Notes: generated by a model from the letters alone, not told the origin. A stretch of DNA of 38,081 nt from Gammaproteobacteria bacterium (GCA_013695765.1 JACCZW010000054.1:1-38081); one strand, 5' to 3'. Positions 6,225 through 28,049 are shown, counted from the stretch's first letter. Program-made: numbers and translations.

Positions 6225-6304
6225 GTCATCTTTCCTGCTGTTATTTATTCCGCTCGGACATACGCCGATCGAAGCCGTTTAGCCGACAATGTCTGTCCGG
6301 CGCC

Positions 6305-7132
6305 TCATGCCACCTGCACGTCGCTGGAACGCGCGTCCATCGCCTCCCGCATCCCGCGCAACAGGTCGGCGACTGCCGCCTGCGCGGCCTTGGCATCGGC
6401 GGCATTGTCAGCGATACGCTCGACCAGCGCGCTGCCGACCACCACGGCGTCGGCAATTTGCGCCATGCGCGCGGCGGACGCTGCATCCTTGATCCCGAAG
6501 CCGACGCCAATCGGCACTTTAGCGCAGGCGCGAATCTCGTCGAGCTTGCGCTCTACCGCGGCAACATCCAGCGTCGCGGCGCCGGTCACGCCTTTGAGCG
6601 ACACGTAATAAATGAACCCGCGCGCTGCCGCACAGATGGTTTCAATACGCGCCGGCGTCGTGGTCGGCGCTAAGAGAAAGATCGGATCGATATCGACCCG
6701 CGCCAGCGCCTGCACAAACTCATCGGCCTCTTCGGGCGGCAAATCCACCGTGATGACGCCGTCCACGCCAGCCTGCGCGGCGCTTTGCGCGAATGTGTGA
6801 CAGCCCATCGCCTCGATGGGATTGAGATAGCCCATCAACACCACCGGCGTGTGCGGATCGTGGCTGCGAAACGACTGAAGCATGTTGAGCGTATCACGCA
6901 GGGTGACGCGGTTTCGCAAGGCGCGTTCACCGGCTGCCTGGATTACCGGCCCGTCGGCCATGGGATCGGAAAACGGCACACCCAACTCCAGAATATCGGC
7001 CCCCGACGCGACCATCGTGTGCATCAATGGCACAGTCGAATCGCGCTCTGGATCGCCGGCCATCAGGTAGGCCACGAGCGCACTGCGCCGCCGCGCCTCT
7101 AAGCGCTCGAAAGCCGTCGCGATACGGCTCAT
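6305..7132 (-). CDS. trpA: Tryptophan synthase alpha chain
   Basis: Alpha subunit, cleaving indole-3-glycerol phosphate to indole and glyceraldehyde 3-phosphate and passing indole to TrpB through the internal tunnel. The TIM-barrel signatures are [19 protein letters not shown] (with the catalytic Glu and the following Asp), [22 protein letters not shown], and the phosphate-binding GVGFGIKD. The 275 residues are normal length. Its ATG overlaps the TGA of trpB by three bases (ATGA), so the two subunits are translationally coupled. Confidence 0.98.
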
Positions 7133-8331
7133 AGCTCAATGCCCGCGTGACGCGCTACGGTGTCGATATCCTTGTCGCCGCGCCCGGAAAGATTGACGAT
7201 GATGCGCTGATCCTTGTCCATCTCTTTCGCAAGCTTCGCGGCGTACGCTAGCGCGTGGCTGCTCTCAAGCGCCGGAATAATGCCCTCGATACGCGTGAGC
7301 GCGTGAAAGCCGGAAAGCGCCTCGTCGTCGGTGACCGCCACGTAACGGGCGCGACCGGTGTCTTTCAGCCAGGCGTGTTCGGGACCCACGCCAGGGTAGT
7401 CGAGTCCCGCCGAAATCGAGTGCGTGTCGAGAATCTGCCCCTCCGGGCCCTGCATCAGATACGTTCGATTGCCGTGCAGCACGCCGGCCTTGCCCGCGCA
7501 CAGAGACGCCGCGTGCTTGCCGGTGCTCAAACCCTGACCCGCGGCCTCAACGCCATAAAGTGCGACACTGGTATCTTTAAGAAACGGATAAAAAAGCCCC
7601 AGCGCGTTGGAACCGCCACCCACGCAGGCTACCAGCGCATCCGGCAGGTGACCGGTTTGGTCAAGGCACTGCGCGCGCGCCTCGCGCCCGATTACCGCCT
7701 GGAAATCGCGTACTATCAACGGGTACGGATGCGGTCCGGCGACGGTGCCGATGATGTAGAACGTGTCGTCCACATGGGTGACCCAGTCACGCATGGCCTC
7801 GTTGAGCGCGTCTTTCAGGGTGCGCGAACCGGACACCACCGGTACCACCTCGGCGCCCAGCAAACGCATGCGAAACACGTTCGGAGACTGGCGCTTGATG
7901 TCGTCGGTGCCCATGTAGATCACGCATTCGAAGCCCAGTCGCGCGGCCACGGTGGCGGTCGCCACGCCGTGCTGCCCCGCGCCGGTCTCGGCGATGATGC
8001 GCGTCTTCCCCATGCCCCTGGCCAGCAACGCCTGCCCCACCGTGTTGTTGATCTTGTGCGCGCCGGTGTGATTCAGGTCTTCGCGCTTCAGATAAATCTG
8101 CGCGCCGCCCAGTTTGCGGCTCCAGCTTGTCGCGTGATATAGGGGACTGGGCCGGCCGACATAGTGTGCGAGATCAGCGTCCAGTTCGGCCTGGAAATCC
8201 TTGTCCGCGCGATAATGTTCGTAAGCCGCGCGCAGCGCATCCAGCGGCTCCATCAGCGTCTCGGAAACGAACCGGCCCCCGTAAATGCCGAAGTGGCCGT
8301 ACTGATCCGGAAGCTGCTCCGGCGTTTGCAT
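7129..8331 (-). CDS. trpB: Tryptophan synthase beta chain
   Basis: PLP enzyme joining indole to serine to make tryptophan. From the ATG at 8331 it is 400 residues and begins [20 protein letters not shown]. The PLP lysine is in [11 protein letters not shown], the indole-site glutamate in ETGAGQHG, and the phosphate loop is [10 protein letters not shown]. The frame is open upstream into trpF, but those residues do not belong to the family. A GTG seven codons earlier (8352) is an alternative start that would overlap the trpF end. The ribosome-binding site is weak, which fits reinitiation 7 bases after the trpF stop. Confidence 0.97.
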
Positions 8332-17238: not shown

Positions 17239-17670
17239 TGTCGGATTGGACTTAAATTAAGACCGCGCATCATAGCCCTCTGCGCCGGCTAAGACAAAAC
17301 CCCGCTGATGACGGCGCAACTTTACACATCATCGCCACGGCGACTAACGGTCACCCTGACCCCTCGCGGCAAACCCGCCGCTGGTCGGGCGCGCATCGCC
17401 ACTCATCGGTCAAGCCAGGATTCATGTTTCACACGTTCCCGCTCGGCGCTATATCTATCCGCGAGCCCGCAATCGGTACATGGAAATCGTTGAGTACACA
17501 ACCTTCCAGCAGTTTTGTCTCGGCTATCCAGCGCCCGGTTTCAGTTGGCGTTCAGGGGTGCTGCGGGTGCCGCCTTCGCTGTAATTCCATGAGCGCCATT
17601 GTTGTACCTGCTGCCCGGCAAGAAGTACGACAAGTACAACCAAGCGCCTAAATCTTCAAGTGGGAAATTC
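17239..17670. other. Divergent intergenic region between leuC and the di-heme gene
   Basis: 432 bases between two divergently transcribed genes, so it must hold both promoters. I see no convincing coding sequence, RNA gene or terminator. The only structure that stands out is an inverted repeat close to the plus-strand gene, listed separately. Promoter boxes could not be assigned with confidence. Confidence 0.6.
17601..17640. promoter_or_regulatory. Inverted repeat upstream of the di-heme oxidoreductase
   Basis: GTTGTAC (17601-17607) and GTACAAC (17634-17640) are perfect 7-base inverted copies separated by 26 bases, and an extra AAGTAC lies inside. The pair ends 30 bases before the ATG at 17671. 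It could be an operator or an mRNA hairpin in the 5' leader; the long loop makes chance possible. Confidence 0.3.
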
Positions 17671-19266
17671 ATGAAAACCATACTAGAAATGCCGTGCCGC
17701 ATTGCGTCCGGTTTTTTATTTATCGCATTCGCTTGCTCCGCGCAGGCCCAACTTACTGATATCACGCAGACCCCCAATCCGATCAACGCCGGTATCGCAA
17801 AGTCGCTGCGTCAGCAGGTCGGCACGGGCCAAGGCGACGCGTTCACACCGGGATCGTCGATCTATCTCATTAAGCGCGATCCCGCGCGCTCGGTGCGGCG
17901 CGGACGCCAACTCTTCCAGCGCGCCTTCACCAAGAATCAGGGATTCGGCCCGCGCGTGAACGACGACTCGATCGGCGATATCACGGTCATGCGCAACCTG
18001 GGCGCGGGATTATCGAATAGCTGCGCGGCCTGCCATGGACGCCCGCGAGGTTCGGCCGGGTTCGGCGGCGATGTGGTGACGCGCCCTGACAGTCGCGATG
18101 CCCCTCACCTGTTCGGCGCCGGGCTGGTAGAAATGCTGGGCGATGAGATCACCCATGATCTGCGCAGTATCCGGGGCCAGGCGGTGCAACGTGCCCAAAC
18201 TTCAGCACGATCCGTCACGCAGCCACTGCAAAGTAAAGGCATCGACTACGGCCAGATCACCGCCTATCCCGATGGCGACGTAGATACCTCGCAGGTGCAA
18301 GGCGTAAACCCAGATCTTCGCGTGCGCCCCTTCTTCGCGCAGGGCGCATCGTTCGCGCTTCGTGAATTCATCGTCGGCGCATTCAAGGACGAAATGGGGT
18401 TGGAATCTCCCGATAACATTCTTTGTCAGGCCACCGATCCGGTCAATGCGGTGGTGGCGACAAGCTCTGCCGGCATGGTTTTCGACCCCGCGCTTGACAT
18501 GATCGTGCGCCCGCCCGTGTGCGACCCCAGGGAAGACGGAGATTTTGACCTTGTGGCCAATGAGATCGATCCGGCGGTGGTCGATCACATGGAATTTTAC
18601 TTACTGAACTATTTCAGTCCCGGCACAGGCCAGTTGACCCCACCTGCGCAACAGGGTTTAAAAATGATGGAGCGGATCGGGTGCACGAGCTGTCATGTCC
18701 AGAACCTCCGCGTCGAGCGCGACCGGCGGATAGCCAGCGTAGAAACGCGGTTTGATCCAGCGAAAGGTATCTTCAATCGGCTGTACGCCACGGCCACTAC
18801 CCAATTCAAGGTCGTAAACGATGGCGATCAATACCCACAACTGCTAGGTGAACCATTTCTGGTCAAAAACATCTTCGCGGACTTCAAGCGACACGATCTG
18901 GGGCCGGCCTTTCACGAACGGGAATACGACGGCTCGTTAGTCACGGAATTCGTGACCGAGCCACTGTGGGGAGTGGGCAGCACCCCTTCTTATGGTCATG
19001 ACGGGCGCAGCATCAACCTGGAGGAAGTCATCCTGCGTCATGGCGGTGAAGCGCAGGAACCACGCGACGCCTTCGCATCCATGAACTGGCTCAACCAGCG
19101 CAAGATCCTCGCCTTCCTCGAGACTTTGGTCATCTTCCCGCCCGACGATACAGCGTCCAATCTGAATCCAGGCGTACCGGGCACCGCCAGTCCGCAGGAT
19201 CCTTCCCAGCACGGCAGTATCAACCTGGGCGCCCTGTTTCAGATCCCATCGGAAGGGCGAGAGTAA
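17671..19266 (+). CDS. Exported di-heme c-type oxidoreductase (DUF1111 / DHOR family)
   Basis: 531 residues from the ATG at 17671, chosen because it begins a clear signal peptide (MKTILEMPCRIASGFLFIAF, cleavage after AQA). Two heme c sites are visible: CAACH (Cys118-His122) and CTSCH (Cys338-His342). The first is followed by GRPRGSAGFGG. The C-terminal block PLWGVGSTPSYGHDGR and the ending with repeated acid-Pro linkers are typical of the di-heme thiol-oxidoreductase-like family, distantly related to MauG and cytochrome c peroxidases. It should sit in the periplasm; substrate is not known. Downstream gene is convergent with a six-base gap. Confidence 0.88.
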   Translation: MKTILEMPCRIASGFLFIAFACSAQAQLTDITQTPNPINAGIAKSLRQQVGTGQGDAFTPGSSIYLIKRDPARSVRRGRQLFQRAFTKNQGFGPRVNDDSIGDITVMRNLGAGLSNSCAACHGRPRGSAGFGGDVVTRPDSRDAPHLFGAGLVEMLGDEITHDLRSIRGQAVQRAQTSARSVTQPLQSKGIDYGQITAYPDGDVDTSQVQGVNPDLRVRPFFAQGASFALREFIVGAFKDEMGLESPDNILCQATDPVNAVVATSSAGMVFDPALDMIVRPPVCDPREDGDFDLVANEIDPAVVDHMEFYLLNYFSPGTGQLTPPAQQGLKMMERIGCTSCHVQNLRVERDRRIASVETRFDPAKGIFNRLYATATTQFKVVNDGDQYPQLLGEPFLVKNIFADFKRHDLGPAFHEREYDGSLVTEFVTEPLWGVGSTPSYGHDGRSINLEEVILRHGGEAQEPRDAFASMNWLNQRKILAFLETLVIFPPDDTASNLNPGVPGTASPQDPSQHGSINLGALFQIPSEGRE

Positions 19267-19272
19267 GCTCAG

Positions 19273-19800
19273 TCATCGGGCGCGTCGGGCAAGCGCCTTC
19301 CAATCGAGATGCAGGCTGTGGCCGGGGGCTCCGCTGAGTTCAGCGAGCCGGCCCCCGGCTGTTTCCAGCACAAAAAGCACCGGAAAGCGACTCGAATAAC
19401 GCGGCAACCGCGCTTCGTACTCGGCGTCGCCTTCTCCTGATCGACGTGGCGGTTCCGGTGGCATGGTGTACGTAACAAGCACCTGGCCGTCTTCGTCCAG
19501 AAACGCTACGTCGATAGGCACCCAACTGTCGCGCATGAACGCCGCGACAACCTCTGGTTGCGGCAACACCATCAGCATTCCTTGATGAGGGTCAATAAAC
19601 CTGCGACCGCCTAGACCCTTGCCGCGACTCGCGGGATCGAGCGCGAGATCAAGTGTGAGCCTCTCCTTTGCGATCGCAAGCCGCACCGTCTCGCGCGATT
19701 CTGGCTCGACCGTGGGCTCGCACCCGGCCATGCACACCACCATGAGGCAGAGAACCAACGTGCCTTTAACCAGGGTTCTTATGCTATGCCTGCTAGGCAC
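19273..19800 (-). CDS. DUF192 lipoprotein
   Basis: 175 residues starting at GTG 19800. A hydrophobic segment ends in VCMAGC, a lipobox-like site (Cys27), so the protein is probably lipidated. The rest is a DUF192 domain: RGKGLGGRRFIDPHQGMLMVLPQP, then MRDSWVPIDVAFLDEDGQVL, and a C-terminal ETAGGRLAELSGAPGHSL. The family's usual GLM, GML and M+NT.IPLDI positions are recognisable, but with an insertion of about 20 residues (PPRRSGEGDAEYEARLPRYS). Function of the family is not established. It is convergent with the di-heme gene and 68 bases downstream of the hemoglobin gene, and may end that operon. Confidence 0.8.
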   Translation of the reverse strand: MPSRHSIRTLVKGTLVLCLMVVCMAGCEPTVEPESRETVRLAIAKERLTLDLALDPASRGKGLGGRRFIDPHQGMLMVLPQPEVVAAFMRDSWVPIDVAFLDEDGQVLVTYTMPPEPPRRSGEGDAEYEARLPRYSSRFPVLFVLETAGGRLAELSGAPGHSLHLDWKALARRAR

Positions 19801-19868: not shown

Positions 19869-20306
19869 TTAACGATAAATAATCTCTCGGCGTAACGGAG
19901 CAAGCCTGGCGAGCAGACGATTTTGAGTGGCTTCAGGAAAATTGAGGCGCGCCATCGCCTCCTGCAGGTTCTCCACTCCGGCGTTGAACTGAGCCTCAGT
20001 GATGTTCAGGCCCCCGTGCACGACGTCCATAGGATCGCCCGTGTATTCGCACGGGCCGCCGCTTAGCACGCAGATTTGCTCGGCGAGCTTCTCGCGAAGG
20101 TGCGGTATGTCGCTGTCGGCGAAGACCGGCCCCACGCGACTATCGTTCGCGCATATTTCGAGATAGCCATCCACCAGCGCCGCTATACCGCCTAGTTTGC
20201 CCTGGAAGAGAGCATCATCCGCCGCTTGGGCTGATGAGTAACCCATCAGCCCAAGTGCCAGCGATAGGGCTAACATATTGAATAGCTTGACTTTTGACCA
20301 TAGCAT
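19869..20306 (-). CDS. Exported group I truncated hemoglobin
   Basis: 145 residues: a signal peptide (residues 1-29, cut after SAQA) and a short globin. Family marks are LGGIAALVDGYLE, DSRVGPVFADSDIPHLREKL, GGPCEYTG and the proximal His97 in DVVHGGLNI, ending QNRLLARLAPLRREIIYR. Truncated hemoglobins bind O2, NO or CO; most are cytoplasmic, so the signal peptide is notable and places this one in the periplasm. By my alignment the B10 position is Leu rather than the usual Tyr, which would alter ligand chemistry. It starts 21 bases after the DUF3034 stop and is the fourth gene of the cupredoxin group. Confidence 0.87.
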   Translation of the reverse strand: MLWSKVKLFNMLALSLALGLMGYSSAQAADDALFQGKLGGIAALVDGYLEICANDSRVGPVFADSDIPHLREKLAEQICVLSGGPCEYTGDPMDVVHGGLNITEAQFNAGVENLQEAMARLNFPEATQNRLLARLAPLRREIIYR

Positions 20307-20327
20307 GATATCTCGCTCCAGATAGAC

Positions 20328-21200
20328 TCAGTAGCCCGCCTCAACGGACAGATAAAACCCTGTCTGATGATCGAGTCCGGCGACGGATCCTAAATCGGCA
20401 TACGCGGCCACGAACGACACATGTTTGTTGGGAAAGTACCCGACGAAAGCGTCCCACCAGTCATCCTCGCGCGCGAAGCCGAGATTGTCCGGCTTCTGCC
20501 GATATTCCACGCCTACGGCCGTGAAACGGTTCAGCAGCAGAGCCGCGCTGCCCTCGAACACCAGATCGCGCCCGCCCTCGTCGCCACCGAAGCCTAACAG
20601 TCCGAGTTGATTCGCCTCGGTCGAGCGCAAGGTCGCGTTGAGCAGTACGTTGCGCCCGGCCAGTCCGGCGAGGAACAGCTTAGTGGCGGCAAGATATACA
20701 TCGACGCCGCTGTCATCCTCGGCGCCCACCGCGCTTGGAATGTCGAAATCCTTGAGGCGCTTGTACTGCACGCCGGCCGAGACCTGCGGCCAGGGCGTAT
20801 AGATCTAATCGCCCAGAATCCGCACCTTGGCGCCGAAGATATCCTGGCGCAGCACACCGTCAGGTTGTTCCAGCGCCAGACCGAGCGTACCGAGATCCAG
20901 ATCCTGCCGCGCGTACGATATCTCCACGCGATTGCGGAACGTGAACGCAGCGCCCAGCATATCCAGGTTGTAATCGCCAGTGTCCACGCGCGTAATCGCG
21001 AACGTTCCGCCATACTCGTCCCGCGTGCCGTAACCTGCCAGCACAGCCCATGGCACCAACCCGCCGCCCGCGGCACCCTCGATCTGCATCGCGCCGCCGG
21101 TGGCCAGCAAACGGCCGTCCGCCTGCGCGGCCGGCAAACAAGCCAGCGCGATCAATATATGAAGCAGGCAAATTGAAACGCAACTCGTCCGGCGATCCAC
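20328..21200 (-). pseudogene. DUF3034 protein gene interrupted by an amber codon
   Basis: One frame carries a signal peptide and then sequence I recognise as DUF3034 (MQIEGAAGGGLVPWAVLAGY, RVDTGDYNLDMLGAAFTFRNRVEISYARQ). It stops at a TAG (20807-20805) after ILGD, and the same frame resumes at once with IYTPWPQVSAGVQYKRLKDF and runs 159 residues to the C-terminal VEAGY. One base change (for example TTG to TAG) explains this. Alternating strands and the aromatic end suggest an outer-membrane beta-barrel; function is unknown. I place the start at GTG 21200, 20 bases after the EAL stop and behind GAGGGA. It is either a recent pseudogene, suppressed, or a base-call error. Confidence 0.8.
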
Positions 21201-21220
21201 CTTTTTTATTCCCTCAACGT

Positions 21221-23605
21221 TCACATGACTTTTCTGCGCGGCATCTCCGCGGCGGGCGGCGCGCTGGAAACCCGTATTTGTTCGTATTGCTTGAACCACG
21301 CGATAAACTCGGTCAGCGGCAGTGGTTTGCTGATGTGGAATCCCTGCGCCATGTCACAGCGGTAACTCTGCAGCAACTTCAGGGATTCCTCGCTTTCCAC
21401 GCCCTCGGCCACCACGCGCAGCCCCATGTTGTGTCCCAGATCGATGGTGGATTTGACGATCACAGCATCGCTGGGGCTGTTCATCAGATCCAGCACGAAG
21501 GACTTGTCGATCTTCAGTTCATGTACCGGCAAGCGTTTGAGGTGCGAAAGCGAGGAATAACCGGTGCCGAAATCGTCGATCGACAGCCGCACGCCACATT
21601 TATCCAGGCGTTCCAGCATGAGGATAATATTGGTCGCGTCGCGCATGACCATGCTTTCGGTAACTTCCAGGGTCAGGTGTACGGGATCGAGACCATATTC
21701 CCGCAACCGCCCCTCCACGATCAAGGGCAGATCCAGGGTGGTCAGGTCCGTGACGGAGATATTGATCGCCACGCCCACATCGATGCCTTCGCGCCGCCAC
21801 ATGCTGCATTCCCTCACTACCGTATCCAGCAGCCAATAGGTCAATGCACGGATATGTCCGGACTGCTCGCCCAGCGGGATAAACTCGTCCGGCCGTATCA
21901 TGCCGTAGCGCGGATGTCGCCAGCGCATTAGCGCCTCCACATGCGTGACCGCACGCGCGCCGAGCTCGATCTTGGGCTGGTAATGCACGACCAGTTCGTT
22001 GTTGGGCGCCGCGCGGCGCAGATCGTTGACCAGCGCCAACCGGTGCAGGTGCTCTTCCTCGCGGCCCGGCTTATAAGCGGTCGGCGATTGACGCGTCGTC
22101 TTGCCTTCGTACATTGCGATATCCGCGCGACGCAGCAAGGCTTCCGCATCGTCGCCATGATCGGGATACACGGAATACTGATTTCCGTCATCACTTCAAC
22201 CGTGCCGAGTTTCATGGGCTCGGCCATGGCCGCTTTCAGTTTCGCGCCCACGAGCAGGGCCGCTTCCAGCTTCTGGCCGACCACCAGAGTGAGAAACTCG
22301 TCGCCGCCCAGCCGCGCCACCGTATCGCTGGCGCGCACCGTGGCGCGCAGGCGCCGACCCACCTCGATAAGCAACTGATCGCCGGTGTGATGCCCGAGCG
22401 TGTCGTTGATCTCCTTAAAACGATCCACATCTATCATCACCACACCCACCGCGTTGCCATTGCGGCGCGCGTGCTCAATAGCCGATTGCAGGCGGTCATG
22501 GGCCAGCGCGCGATTCGGCAGGCCGGTAAGCGTGTCGTGAAACGCCTGATGGGCGATCTTGCCTTCGCGTTCGGCAATAGCGCTCTGCATCGTATTCATC
22601 GAGGTCGCCAGGGCCCCCAGCTCATCCTTGCGCTGGATCTCGACCTTGTGCCGATAATCGCCCTGTGCGATCCGCTGCGTGGCGGCGACCAGCCGACTCA
22701 GCGGTCGTGCTATGCCATGCGCCAAAATGAAGGCCGCAACCAGCGCAACACCCAGCGCCAGCAACGAAATCAGGGCCAGCCGTTTGCCAAGGGCGCGAAA
22801 CGGCCCACCGTGCTCAAGCGGAATTTGCAACACCGCGCCGACATTGCGCCAGCCGCCAGTTTCCAGAGGTATCTTCAGCGTCAGGTATTCGGCGTCGCGC
22901 AGTCGCATGGCATAAGGTTCGCTGACATCGGCACTCGTACCCAGTGTGCTCGCCAGCGCATTGCGTAGAGGCGCCGACAAAAGTGGAAGGTAAGGGCATA
23001 TCAGCATTGCGGCCGCTTTTGCTGTAACCGACAAAGGATACCTCCAGCCCGGTCAGTGCCTTGAGTTTTGCGACCAGCACATCGTCCAGCACGAATCCCA
23101 TGACCGCCCAGGCGACTCTTTCGGGGGTTTCCACCGGCACGGCCACGAGTTGATGCGGCGCGCTGCCGAACACCACTGTCGCCAGCTCGAATTGCTTGTT
23201 TTCGGCTTCGCGCACAAGTTCGGCCAGAATGGACCGAATCTCTTCGGGCAGGTCGGACGTGCTGACCATCACCTTGCCGTCCAGCGACAGCACCAGCGCT
23301 TCGCGCGCGCCCAGACGCCTCTTGTAGTTTTCCAGTGCCGAGCGGATGGTCGGCACATCTTCGGTCGCCACCGCTTCCTTGAAACCGAAATCGCTGGCCG
23401 CCTGCCGCGCGGCGTACAACAACTGCGTGTTACGTTCCCGCATCGACTCGCCGAACACCCGGGCACCGATTTCCAGAGTCACCTGCGCATGCTCGATCAT
23501 GCTGGCGCGGATGGCGGAATACACCACCACAACGATGGGCGCCATCACGCCCGCGATCACGAACACCAGCGCCGCCAAGAAGCGCGTTCGAAAGTTCAGG
23601 GGCAT
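21221..23605 (-). pseudogene. Membrane GGDEF-EAL protein with two frameshifts
   Basis: Read across frames this is one protein: membrane helix (MPLNFRTRFLAALVFVIAGV), a periplasmic sensor region of about 250 residues, a second helix, HAMP (GIARPLSRLVAATQRIAQGDY), GGDEF (DTLTGLPNR, RLGGDEF) and a complete EAL domain (VEALMRWRHP, IDDFGTGYSSL, KIDKSFV, VAEGVE). It would make and/or degrade c-di-GMP in response to a periplasmic signal. Frameshift one fits an extra T in a T4 run (22979-22982, strand minus). Frameshift two, near 22172-22178, removes about 7 bases so ISIGxSVYP becomes ISI/SVYP. The ATG at 23605 overlaps the cupredoxin TGA (TGATG). Confidence 0.85.
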
Positions 23606-24381
23606 CAATTGCTCCAGCGCCCGAACTTGTCTTCGACGGAATTGGTGGACGGCGCGGGCTGCATGTCCTGAGACGCGGCGCGCAGTTCCAGCCGGTAATT
23701 GCGCTCGACTTCGGCGGCGTCGTTGACTTGCACCGTTTCGCTGACTTGCGACGTGCGCGTTTCGCCATGCGAATGCCATAAACGGACTTCGTAACGGCCG
23801 GCCGGCAGTGCATCGACACGGGTAGTGCCCTGCGCATCGGTTATGCCGAAATAGGGCGTGTCGGTGACATAGATGTAACCCAGCATCCAGTCGTGGATAT
23901 TGCAACCCAGCGTTACAACGCCCGACTGGTCGAACATCAACGGTTCGGCGGGCATATCTTTGTACAGCGGCAATTTGAAGCGCTTGGGCGCAGAGAACGA
24001 GTAGACGCTGTGGTGGATTTCATCGCTGTTGGGGAAATTCACCAGTGTGCCGGTCCACACCGGCAATACGTGCGGATCGAAACGCCGGTTGCGCTGATCC
24101 ATAAAGGCTCTCGGCGCATCCGCCGCGGGCGGTGGCGTAAAGTTCAGCGCGTGCAGCGACACCACCGCATTTGCCGTGGACACGCCCTGTGTATCCGTTA
24201 CGCGCGCGACAAAATCGCCCGCGGCCTTGCATTCAAACACGACCAGCGGCTGCGCAAGCCAGCACAGCGTCCCGACAATAATGTTGATACGATTGATTAC
24301 CAGCGCCTCCGCTGTGCACAGGCGGACGAATTTAACCGACCGGCGGCGGGAGCGTCTGACGCTTATGGACAAAGGACTCAA
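23605..24381 (-). CDS. Exported cupredoxin-like protein (methylamine-utilisation-protein-like)
   Basis: Type 1 copper-type protein with candidate ligands His123/His124 (DEIHHSVYSF), Cys160, His163 and Met166 in GCNIHDWMLGY, followed by YFGITDAQGTTRV and a carboxypeptidase-like turn domain (LPAGRYEVRLWH). Proteins of this type are often labelled methylamine utilisation proteins in annotations, though no mau genes are here. A hydrophobic export signal lies at about residues 31-52. The start is uncertain: no ATG precedes the signal; TTG at 24381 or TTG three codons later are candidates. An unused GGAGG lies close to the signal. First gene of the group; its stop overlaps the GGDEF/EAL start. Confidence 0.8.
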   Translation of the reverse strand: MSPLSISVRRSRRRSVKFVRLCTAEALVINRINIIVGTLCWLAQPLVVFECKAAGDFVARVTDTQGVSTANAVVSLHALNFTPPPAADAPRAFMDQRNRRFDPHVLPVWTGTLVNFPNSDEIHHSVYSFSAPKRFKLPLYKDMPAEPLMFDQSGVVTLGCNIHDWMLGYIYVTDTPYFGITDAQGTTRVDALPAGRYEVRLWHSHGETRTSQVSETVQVNDAAEVERNYRLELRAASQDMQPAPSTNSVEDKFGRWSN

Positions 24382-26835: not shown

Positions 26836-28049
26836 TCAGGCGGCGTGCTTCCGATCCTCTTCGTTAGCTTGGCGTTTGAGCTGCACGCCATCGACGAATT
26901 TCATGCCCGCGCGGACGGGCGGTAACAGGTGTGCGGCATCGAGCTTGCGCCAGCGTGTCTCGGCCATTTCGATGAGTTTGAAGGCCATGGTCAATGCTTT
27001 GGTGCGGGTGCCGGCGCCTTTCGTGATCCGCTGACGCAACCGCACCGTGGCGAATACCGACTCGATCGGGTTGCTGGTGCGCAAGTGCTTCCAATGCTCA
27101 GCCGGGAAGTCGAAGTGGGTGAGCAACACCGCGCGATCTTTGGCCAGGCAGGTAGCGGCCTTGTCGTACTTCGGCGCGAACTCGATTAAGAAGCGGTCGA
27201 TGTCTTGCTCGGCCTGGCTGCGTGTCTCGGCGTACATGATTTCTCGTAGCATGCGCTTGGCCCTGGGCTGCAGGCGTTTGGGCAGCTTGTCGAGTACGTT
27301 GCCTAGCTTGTGGCACCAGTCGCGCTGCTCGCGAGTCGCCGGCCAGACCTCGCGCACCGCCGCCCAAAAACCCAAGGCGCCATCGCCGACCGCGACGGCA
27401 GGTGCCTGCATGCCGCGGTGCTTGAGATCACGCAACAGCGTGGCCCAGCTCTCGCTACTCTCGCGATAGCCGTCCTCCAGCGCGATCAGCTCCTTACGCC
27501 CGTCGGCACGCGCGCCGATCAGCACCAGCGTGCAGCGCCGGTCGTCCTCAAGGCGCACGTTGAAGTGGATGCCATCGGCCCAGACATACACATAATCCCG
27601 CGCGGCCAGGCGCCGCTGGCGAAACTGCCGATACTCGGTCTCCCACACCGCCGTCAGCCGGGCGATGTTGGTCGCTGATAGACCGGCGGCATCTGCACCG
27701 AGTAGCGCCGCCAGCGCGGGCTGAAAGTCACCCGTGGAGAGCCCGCGCAGATACAACACCGGCTAGACCTCGGCCACCTGCGGTGAGCGGCGCATGTACG
27801 GCGGCAGGAGCTGGCTGGTGAACCGTTGCCGCTTGCCCTCCTCATCAAGACGCCGATCATTGACCCGCGGCGCTCGCACTTTAAGGGTGCCCGCCCCGCA
27901 AGTCATTCCGGTGGTGCCCGATGTAGGCCGCGATCTCAGTCTCTAATGCCATCATCAACATCCTGCGCGCACCTTCCCGAGCGATCTCATCCAGCGTCCC
28001 AACTCATGTAGCGCTTCCGTCGTACCTTGGTTTCGATTAATCTCAACAT
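26836..28049 (-). pseudogene. IS256-family transposase, multiply disrupted
   Basis: The last 307 codons are intact and carry the mutator-type DDE catalytic region: Asp in YVWADGIHFNVR, Asp in AVGDGALGFW and Glu in TSNPIESVFATVRLRQRITKG. Upstream, VNDRRLDEEGKRQRFTSQLL...RRSPQVAEV runs into a TAG (27765-27763) in the same frame where relatives have Leu (EVLPVLYLRG). Further upstream the N-terminal DEIAREGARRM...TEIAAYIGHHRNDLR is in another frame (shift near 27880-27895), with perhaps 30 residues missing at the junction. A third shift lies near 28000. The ATG at 28049 (MLRLIETK) follows a GGGGGAAGGAG site. Confidence 0.88.

Follow-up and report, generated by a model that had tools for sequence, protein, structure and literature searches.

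We describe here a four-gene module on the minus strand of a 38,081-nucleotide stretch of DNA (hereafter the window) from a Gammaproteobacteria bacterium (GCA_013695765.1, JACCZW010000054.1:1-38081). Over positions 24381-19869, the gene order is an exported cupredoxin (23605..24381; start uncertain, being TTG at 24381 or further in), a cyclic di-GMP (c-di-GMP) protein of dCache_3-HAMP-GGDEF-EAL architecture that is predicted to reside in the inner membrane (21221..23605, starting with ATG at 23605), a DUF3034 protein (PF11231) predicted to form a 12-strand outer-membrane barrel (20328..21200, GTG start), and an exported, group-1-like truncated hemoglobin (trHb; 19869..20306) with a predicted signal peptide. 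Pfam scans of the four products recovered dCache_3, HAMP, GGDEF and EAL (in gene pieces), DUF3034 and Bac_globin. The stop of the first gene and the start of the second overlap as TGATG at 23607-23603, and the later junctions are gaps of 20 bases between GGDEF/EAL and DUF3034 and 21 bases between DUF3034 and trHb, just as an initial annotation of the window had placed them. That annotation erred in taking all four genes as intact: as assembled, the GGDEF/EAL frame is broken twice and DUF3034 carries an in-frame TAG.

As the initial annotation claimed, the four genes belong together as one module: order, adjacency and co-occurrence are retained in other genomes, and the lack of a conserved neighbourhood that would have refuted the claim is not seen. 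In a sample of 398 genomes drawn evenly from Pseudomonadota, DUF3034 occurred in 39, all of which also carried the exported trHb. The cupredoxin was found in 38 of these 39 genomes versus 34 of the 359 others (p ~7e-32), and high-scoring trHbs (> ~115 bits) were nearly confined to DUF3034 genomes, with G187 and G361 as the exceptions. At 41 diverse loci, trHb lay directly 3' of DUF3034 in 39, the remaining two being G028 and, at L073, a second copy that is broken; all four genes were present in 30, and six of these 30 had cupredoxin and GGDEF/EAL divergent from DUF3034 and trHb. Among the best 80 matches with named loci, a set that leans towards Pseudomonas and otherwise consists mostly of Stutzerimonas, Xanthomonas, Silanimonas and relatives, trHb directly followed DUF3034 in every case (80/80) and all four genes were present in ~73. 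Median spacings in this set, estimated from longest frames, were -11, -4 and -1 bases, so that overlaps are typical. Since this gene order is found repeatedly in different classes of Pseudomonadota, the grouping exceeds chance. Clustering of flanking genes revealed no further widely recurring neighbour, and the unit is thus exactly four genes; a wider operon was not seen, with DUF192 following the module in three loci only.

Judged from gene neighbourhoods, the operon is a signalling pair (cupredoxin and GGDEF-EAL) joined to an exchangeable outer-membrane pair (DUF3034 and trHb). Many cupredoxins outside DUF3034 genomes adjoin the same GGDEF/EAL protein, and in many loci this pair has no hemoglobin beside it. 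Where DUF3034 and trHb stand alone, the cupredoxin and GGDEF-EAL genes were found elsewhere in the same genome in four of five cases. At 11 loci without DUF3034 or trHb (L161-L164, L166-L170, L175 and L176), the cupredoxin, often together with GGDEF-EAL, adjoins a different family of ~410 residues. Members of this family have a signal peptide, two show weak Porin_4 similarity, and the family is probably an outer-membrane barrel; no Pfam or NCBIfam model scored above its cut-off and no sequence relative was found in the PDB. Homology of this alternative barrel to DUF3034 was considered and set aside (hhalign probability 6.5%). A quick tree of the cupredoxins implied ~4 changes between the two barrel partners. 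It is the split genomes, the barrel swap and these repeated changes that lead us to the two-pair description.

The cupredoxin had no Pfam cupredoxin match, and its identity rests on conserved ligands, weak sequence matches in the PDB and an AlphaFold2 (AF2) model with a confidence (pLDDT) of 89. The type 1 copper ligands, a His and a Cys-x2-His-x2-Met motif, were invariant in all aligned cupredoxins, and this Cys-x2-His-x2-Met spacing is that of amicyanin. In the model of window positions 23608-24267, a cupredoxin domain (residues ~52-135) appears inserted in a carboxypeptidase-regulatory/CnaB-like sandwich (~15-50 and 136-196). Residues 52-135 aligned with plastocyanin at Z 11.8 (root-mean-square deviation [rmsd] 1.9 over 83 residues) and with amicyanin at Z 10.5. 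The protein has both the ligands and the fold of a type 1 copper cupredoxin, and may bind copper. It shares its fold with amicyanin and plastocyanin and its ligand spacing with amicyanin, but differs from them in its insertion within the sandwich and in having a c-di-GMP enzyme as its partner. In more distant cupredoxin relatives (L181, L182), the gene that follows resembles a di-heme cytochrome c peroxidase and takes the place of the c-di-GMP gene.

The EAL, N, E-TE, DDFGTG, KID, AEG-E and QG motifs, which are the catalytic motifs of an EAL phosphodiesterase, are kept by the window's piece of the signalling protein and by its relatives. The GGDEF consensus is lost in 79 of 99 neighbour copies and is not a conserved feature of the family, although the window copy keeps RLGGDEF and a sister species of the same genus (G001) also keeps GGDEF. 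Because the EAL motifs are retained and GGDEF has decayed in most copies, the output is probably c-di-GMP hydrolysis. All NCBIfam equivalog models fell below their cut-offs for this protein. In many Pseudomonas loci (L118, L128, L115, L096, L121, L093 and others), the cupredoxin is immediately preceded by another dCache-GGDEF-EAL gene, which seems to have arisen by tandem duplication.

The DUF3034 match, read through the one TAG, reached 365.9 bits over 254 of 255 model positions and passed the curated cut-off. An AF2 model of a DUF3034 relative had 12 strands (pLDDT 74), and its best fold matches were FapF (Z 20.0, rmsd 3.1 over 224 residues), COG4313 and KdgM-type channels. This model is the basis for predicting that DUF3034 forms an outer-membrane barrel of 12 strands. 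The most conserved segment, at the N-terminus, was modelled at low confidence, and sharing a barrel fold does not reveal a function.

The trHb matched PF01152 with 45.4 bits (cut-off 21) and is a member of the truncated hemoglobins. Its F8 His and CD1 Phe were kept in 120/120 aligned proteins, as they are in the group 1 protein trHbN. The module protein differs from trHbN in being exported, in its Cys-x6-Cys motif, found in nearly all of them, and in its distal pocket. Positions E7 and E11 were apolar in 120/120 (E11 being Leu, Phe or Ile), whereas trHbN of Mycobacterium tuberculosis has a distal Gln. Position B10 varies with the alignment, being apolar in the multiple alignment and, for the sister protein, a Tyr in a pairwise one; the polar trHbN-type pocket (Tyr B10, Gln E11) was not present. 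A simple pattern detected a lipobox-like motif in ~97 of the 120, suggesting that the protein is mostly a lipoprotein, whereas the window protein has a signal peptide without a lipobox and the sister protein likewise lacks one. In Pseudomonas matsuisoli (L142, 6831-7247), both cysteines of Cys-x6-Cys are lost together, as expected of a disulfide pair.

We hypothesize, and consider somewhat more likely than not, that the two pairs together make up a c-di-GMP sensor spanning the envelope, with a logic resembling that of the YfiBNR system. DUF3034 would form the outer-membrane barrel, with which the exported trHb, usually a predicted lipoprotein, would act, and the cupredoxin, in the periplasm, would work together with the dCache-HAMP-GGDEF-EAL protein of the inner membrane. 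The input would be a condition of the outer envelope or of the periplasm, such as ligand entry through the barrel or, for the two metal proteins, their redox or gas state. The cupredoxin/dCache side would read this input and alter EAL activity, leading mainly to c-di-GMP hydrolysis. Comparison establishes the unit, the two pairs, the barrel swap and the retention of EAL motifs and metal-ligand residues; localisation, physical contact and the direction of signal flow are inferred. Several points weigh against this hypothesis. Two of the four genes in the window, those for the signalling protein and DUF3034, are not intact, so a working relay in this organism is doubtful. GGDEF is canonical in the window lineage, which makes hydrolysis as the sole output less clear there. 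In the dCache domain, conservation extends to no Cys, His or Met that might point to direct metal contact, and the partner interactions are proposals. With less confidence, and only tentatively, we extend the hypothesis to a widespread, undescribed class of transenvelope sensors in which the periplasmic copper protein and an outer-membrane barrel with a heme lipoprotein dedicated to it would jointly set c-di-GMP hydrolysis, the barrel being exchangeable so that varied ligands feed one signalling pair.

Other accounts of the locus fit the evidence less well. That the four genes are unrelated neighbours is scarcely credible, since it has nothing in its favour beyond the absence of a known function and is refuted by the conserved order, overlaps and co-occurrence. 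The initial annotation went further than a shared operon and proposed that the cupredoxin and hemoglobin together read a copper, O2 or nitric oxide (NO) signal that is passed to c-di-GMP turnover. The c-di-GMP enzyme and the predicted outer-membrane barrel of that proposal stand; joint sensing lacks support, as the cupredoxin is linked to the enzyme and the hemoglobin to DUF3034, and the two pairs separate. An O2, NO or copper input is possible, but it found no support in gene content or in upstream boxes. NnrS was present in 20 of 41 carriers versus 21 of 30 non-carriers and NirS in 5/41 versus 5/30, and a link to denitrification or NO was dropped for want of enrichment. Upstream FNR/ANR, NsrR, DNR, CueR-like, Fur and LexA boxes did not exceed shuffled counts, and sigma54-like boxes (2/109 versus 0.05 expected) were too few for use. 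The same results bear on a periplasmic NO/O2 chemistry, in which the cupredoxin re-reduces a trHb acting as an NO dioxygenase or oxygen reducer and GGDEF-EAL reports the result. The presence of two exported metal proteins in one operon and the invariant F8 His and CD1 Phe would suit this account, and for cable bacteria oxygen reduction by a periplasmic trHb has been proposed (PMC12093952). The cupredoxin, however, often occurs without trHb, trHb is found without an adjacent cupredoxin, and the apolar E7 and E11 contrast with the distal Gln of trHbN in M. tuberculosis; together with the unenriched NnrS, NirS and FNR/NsrR boxes, this makes the chemistry unlikely. Copper sensing or handling, with copper admitted by the barrel and bound by a cupredoxin that signals via c-di-GMP, appears equally improbable. 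It draws on the invariant type 1 ligands and on a fold match of the DUF3034 model to PcoB, which transports copper (Z 12.9, rmsd 3.8 over 182 residues), but many unrelated 12-strand barrels outscore PcoB, as FapF does. In addition, clustering of the flanks, as distinct from full annotation, revealed no recurring copper genes, the CueR-like word is not enriched upstream, and the hemoglobin is left unexplained.

A more serious challenge to the sensor hypothesis, as far as this organism is concerned, is that the module has no function here and is either a decaying pseudo-operon or the product of assembly errors in a metagenome-derived genome; we regard this as evenly balanced. From the ATG at 23605, the GGDEF/EAL frame ends at 263 residues and continues in a second frame and then in the first again, with changes near 23000-22975 and near 22190-22171, and the TAG in DUF3034 lies at 20807-20805. 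In the sister species, the signalling protein is one 800-residue frame and DUF3034 is open. The window and the sister contig have ~22 genes in common, among which only GGDEF/EAL and DUF3034 are broken in the window; the clustering of three breaks in two adjacent module genes has a rough chance of 0.003-0.006, computed post hoc. Two further EAL genes of the same genome (G000) are broken inside contigs and another has a stop near a contig end, compared with 0 of 39 ABC-transporter domains, these two domain families being the source of the genome-wide break rates. Broken EAL/GGDEF genes were noted at C67 (L185), C87 (L186) and C111 (L187) of this genome, and likewise at C160, C200 and C227 of the sister genome. 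The broken EAL genes suggest that selection on c-di-GMP genes has been relaxed in the lineage, with an assembly cause as the alternative, and decay of c-di-GMP signalling across the genus is possible. Against a loss of function, the ratio of nonsynonymous to synonymous substitution (dN/dS) between window and sister is 0.07-0.29 over all four genes, although the value for one DUF3034 half depends on saturated dS; the module was therefore under constraint until recently. The metagenome origin of the genome is also itself presumed. Taken together, the module is probably decaying or mis-assembled in this genome and intact in the sister species.

The sensor hypothesis has partial parallels among known systems. 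In the YfiBNR (TpbB) system of Pseudomonas aeruginosa, an outer-membrane lipoprotein, a periplasmic protein and an inner-membrane c-di-GMP enzyme are encoded in one operon (PMC4887326, PMC4655355). The likeness lies in an architecture that would be similar and in the proposed relay of envelope state to c-di-GMP; homology of the parts is not claimed, and Pfam scans placed the four module proteins in families other than YfiR, YfiB and YfiN. Moreover, YfiN is a cyclase whereas the module enzyme keeps EAL, neither YfiR nor YfiB is known to be a metal protein whereas the periplasmic protein here is a cupredoxin, and YfiBNR has no barrel whereas the outer-membrane side of the module consists of a barrel and a globin. 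Globin-coupled and heme-PAS enzymes such as DosP and GCS-HD-GYP also tie a heme protein to c-di-GMP hydrolysis (PMC4263535, PMC10882959). Their heme domain lies within the enzyme, however, while the module globin is exported as a protein of its own and is linked to a predicted outer-membrane barrel. In the literature on DUF3034, on cupredoxins with EAL proteins and on exported globins, mostly non-subscription, we found no account of the operon, and only two of the 5.4 million papers searched name DUF3034. The parts are of known kinds and the combination is new: an uncharacterised operon conserved in many Gram-negative bacteria.

Most c-di-GMP enzymes have no known input, and the operon offers a concrete candidate input pathway that can be addressed in culturable Pseudomonas, Stutzerimonas and Xanthomonas. 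It also gives DUF3034 a context, and provides an example of a hemoglobin that is exported and probably anchored by lipid, with an outer-membrane partner dedicated to it.

Two neighbouring features of the window complete the description of the locus. A transposase-like gene, of IS256 type by eye, lies at 26836-27759, near the end of synteny with the sister contig (~26.6 kb). On the other side, a DHOR di-heme gene (17599-19266) and a DUF192 gene (19273-19800) adjoin the module. Both are open in the window, and on the sister contig (L034) the corresponding DHOR (6225-7840) and DUF192 (7794-8288) genes are broken.

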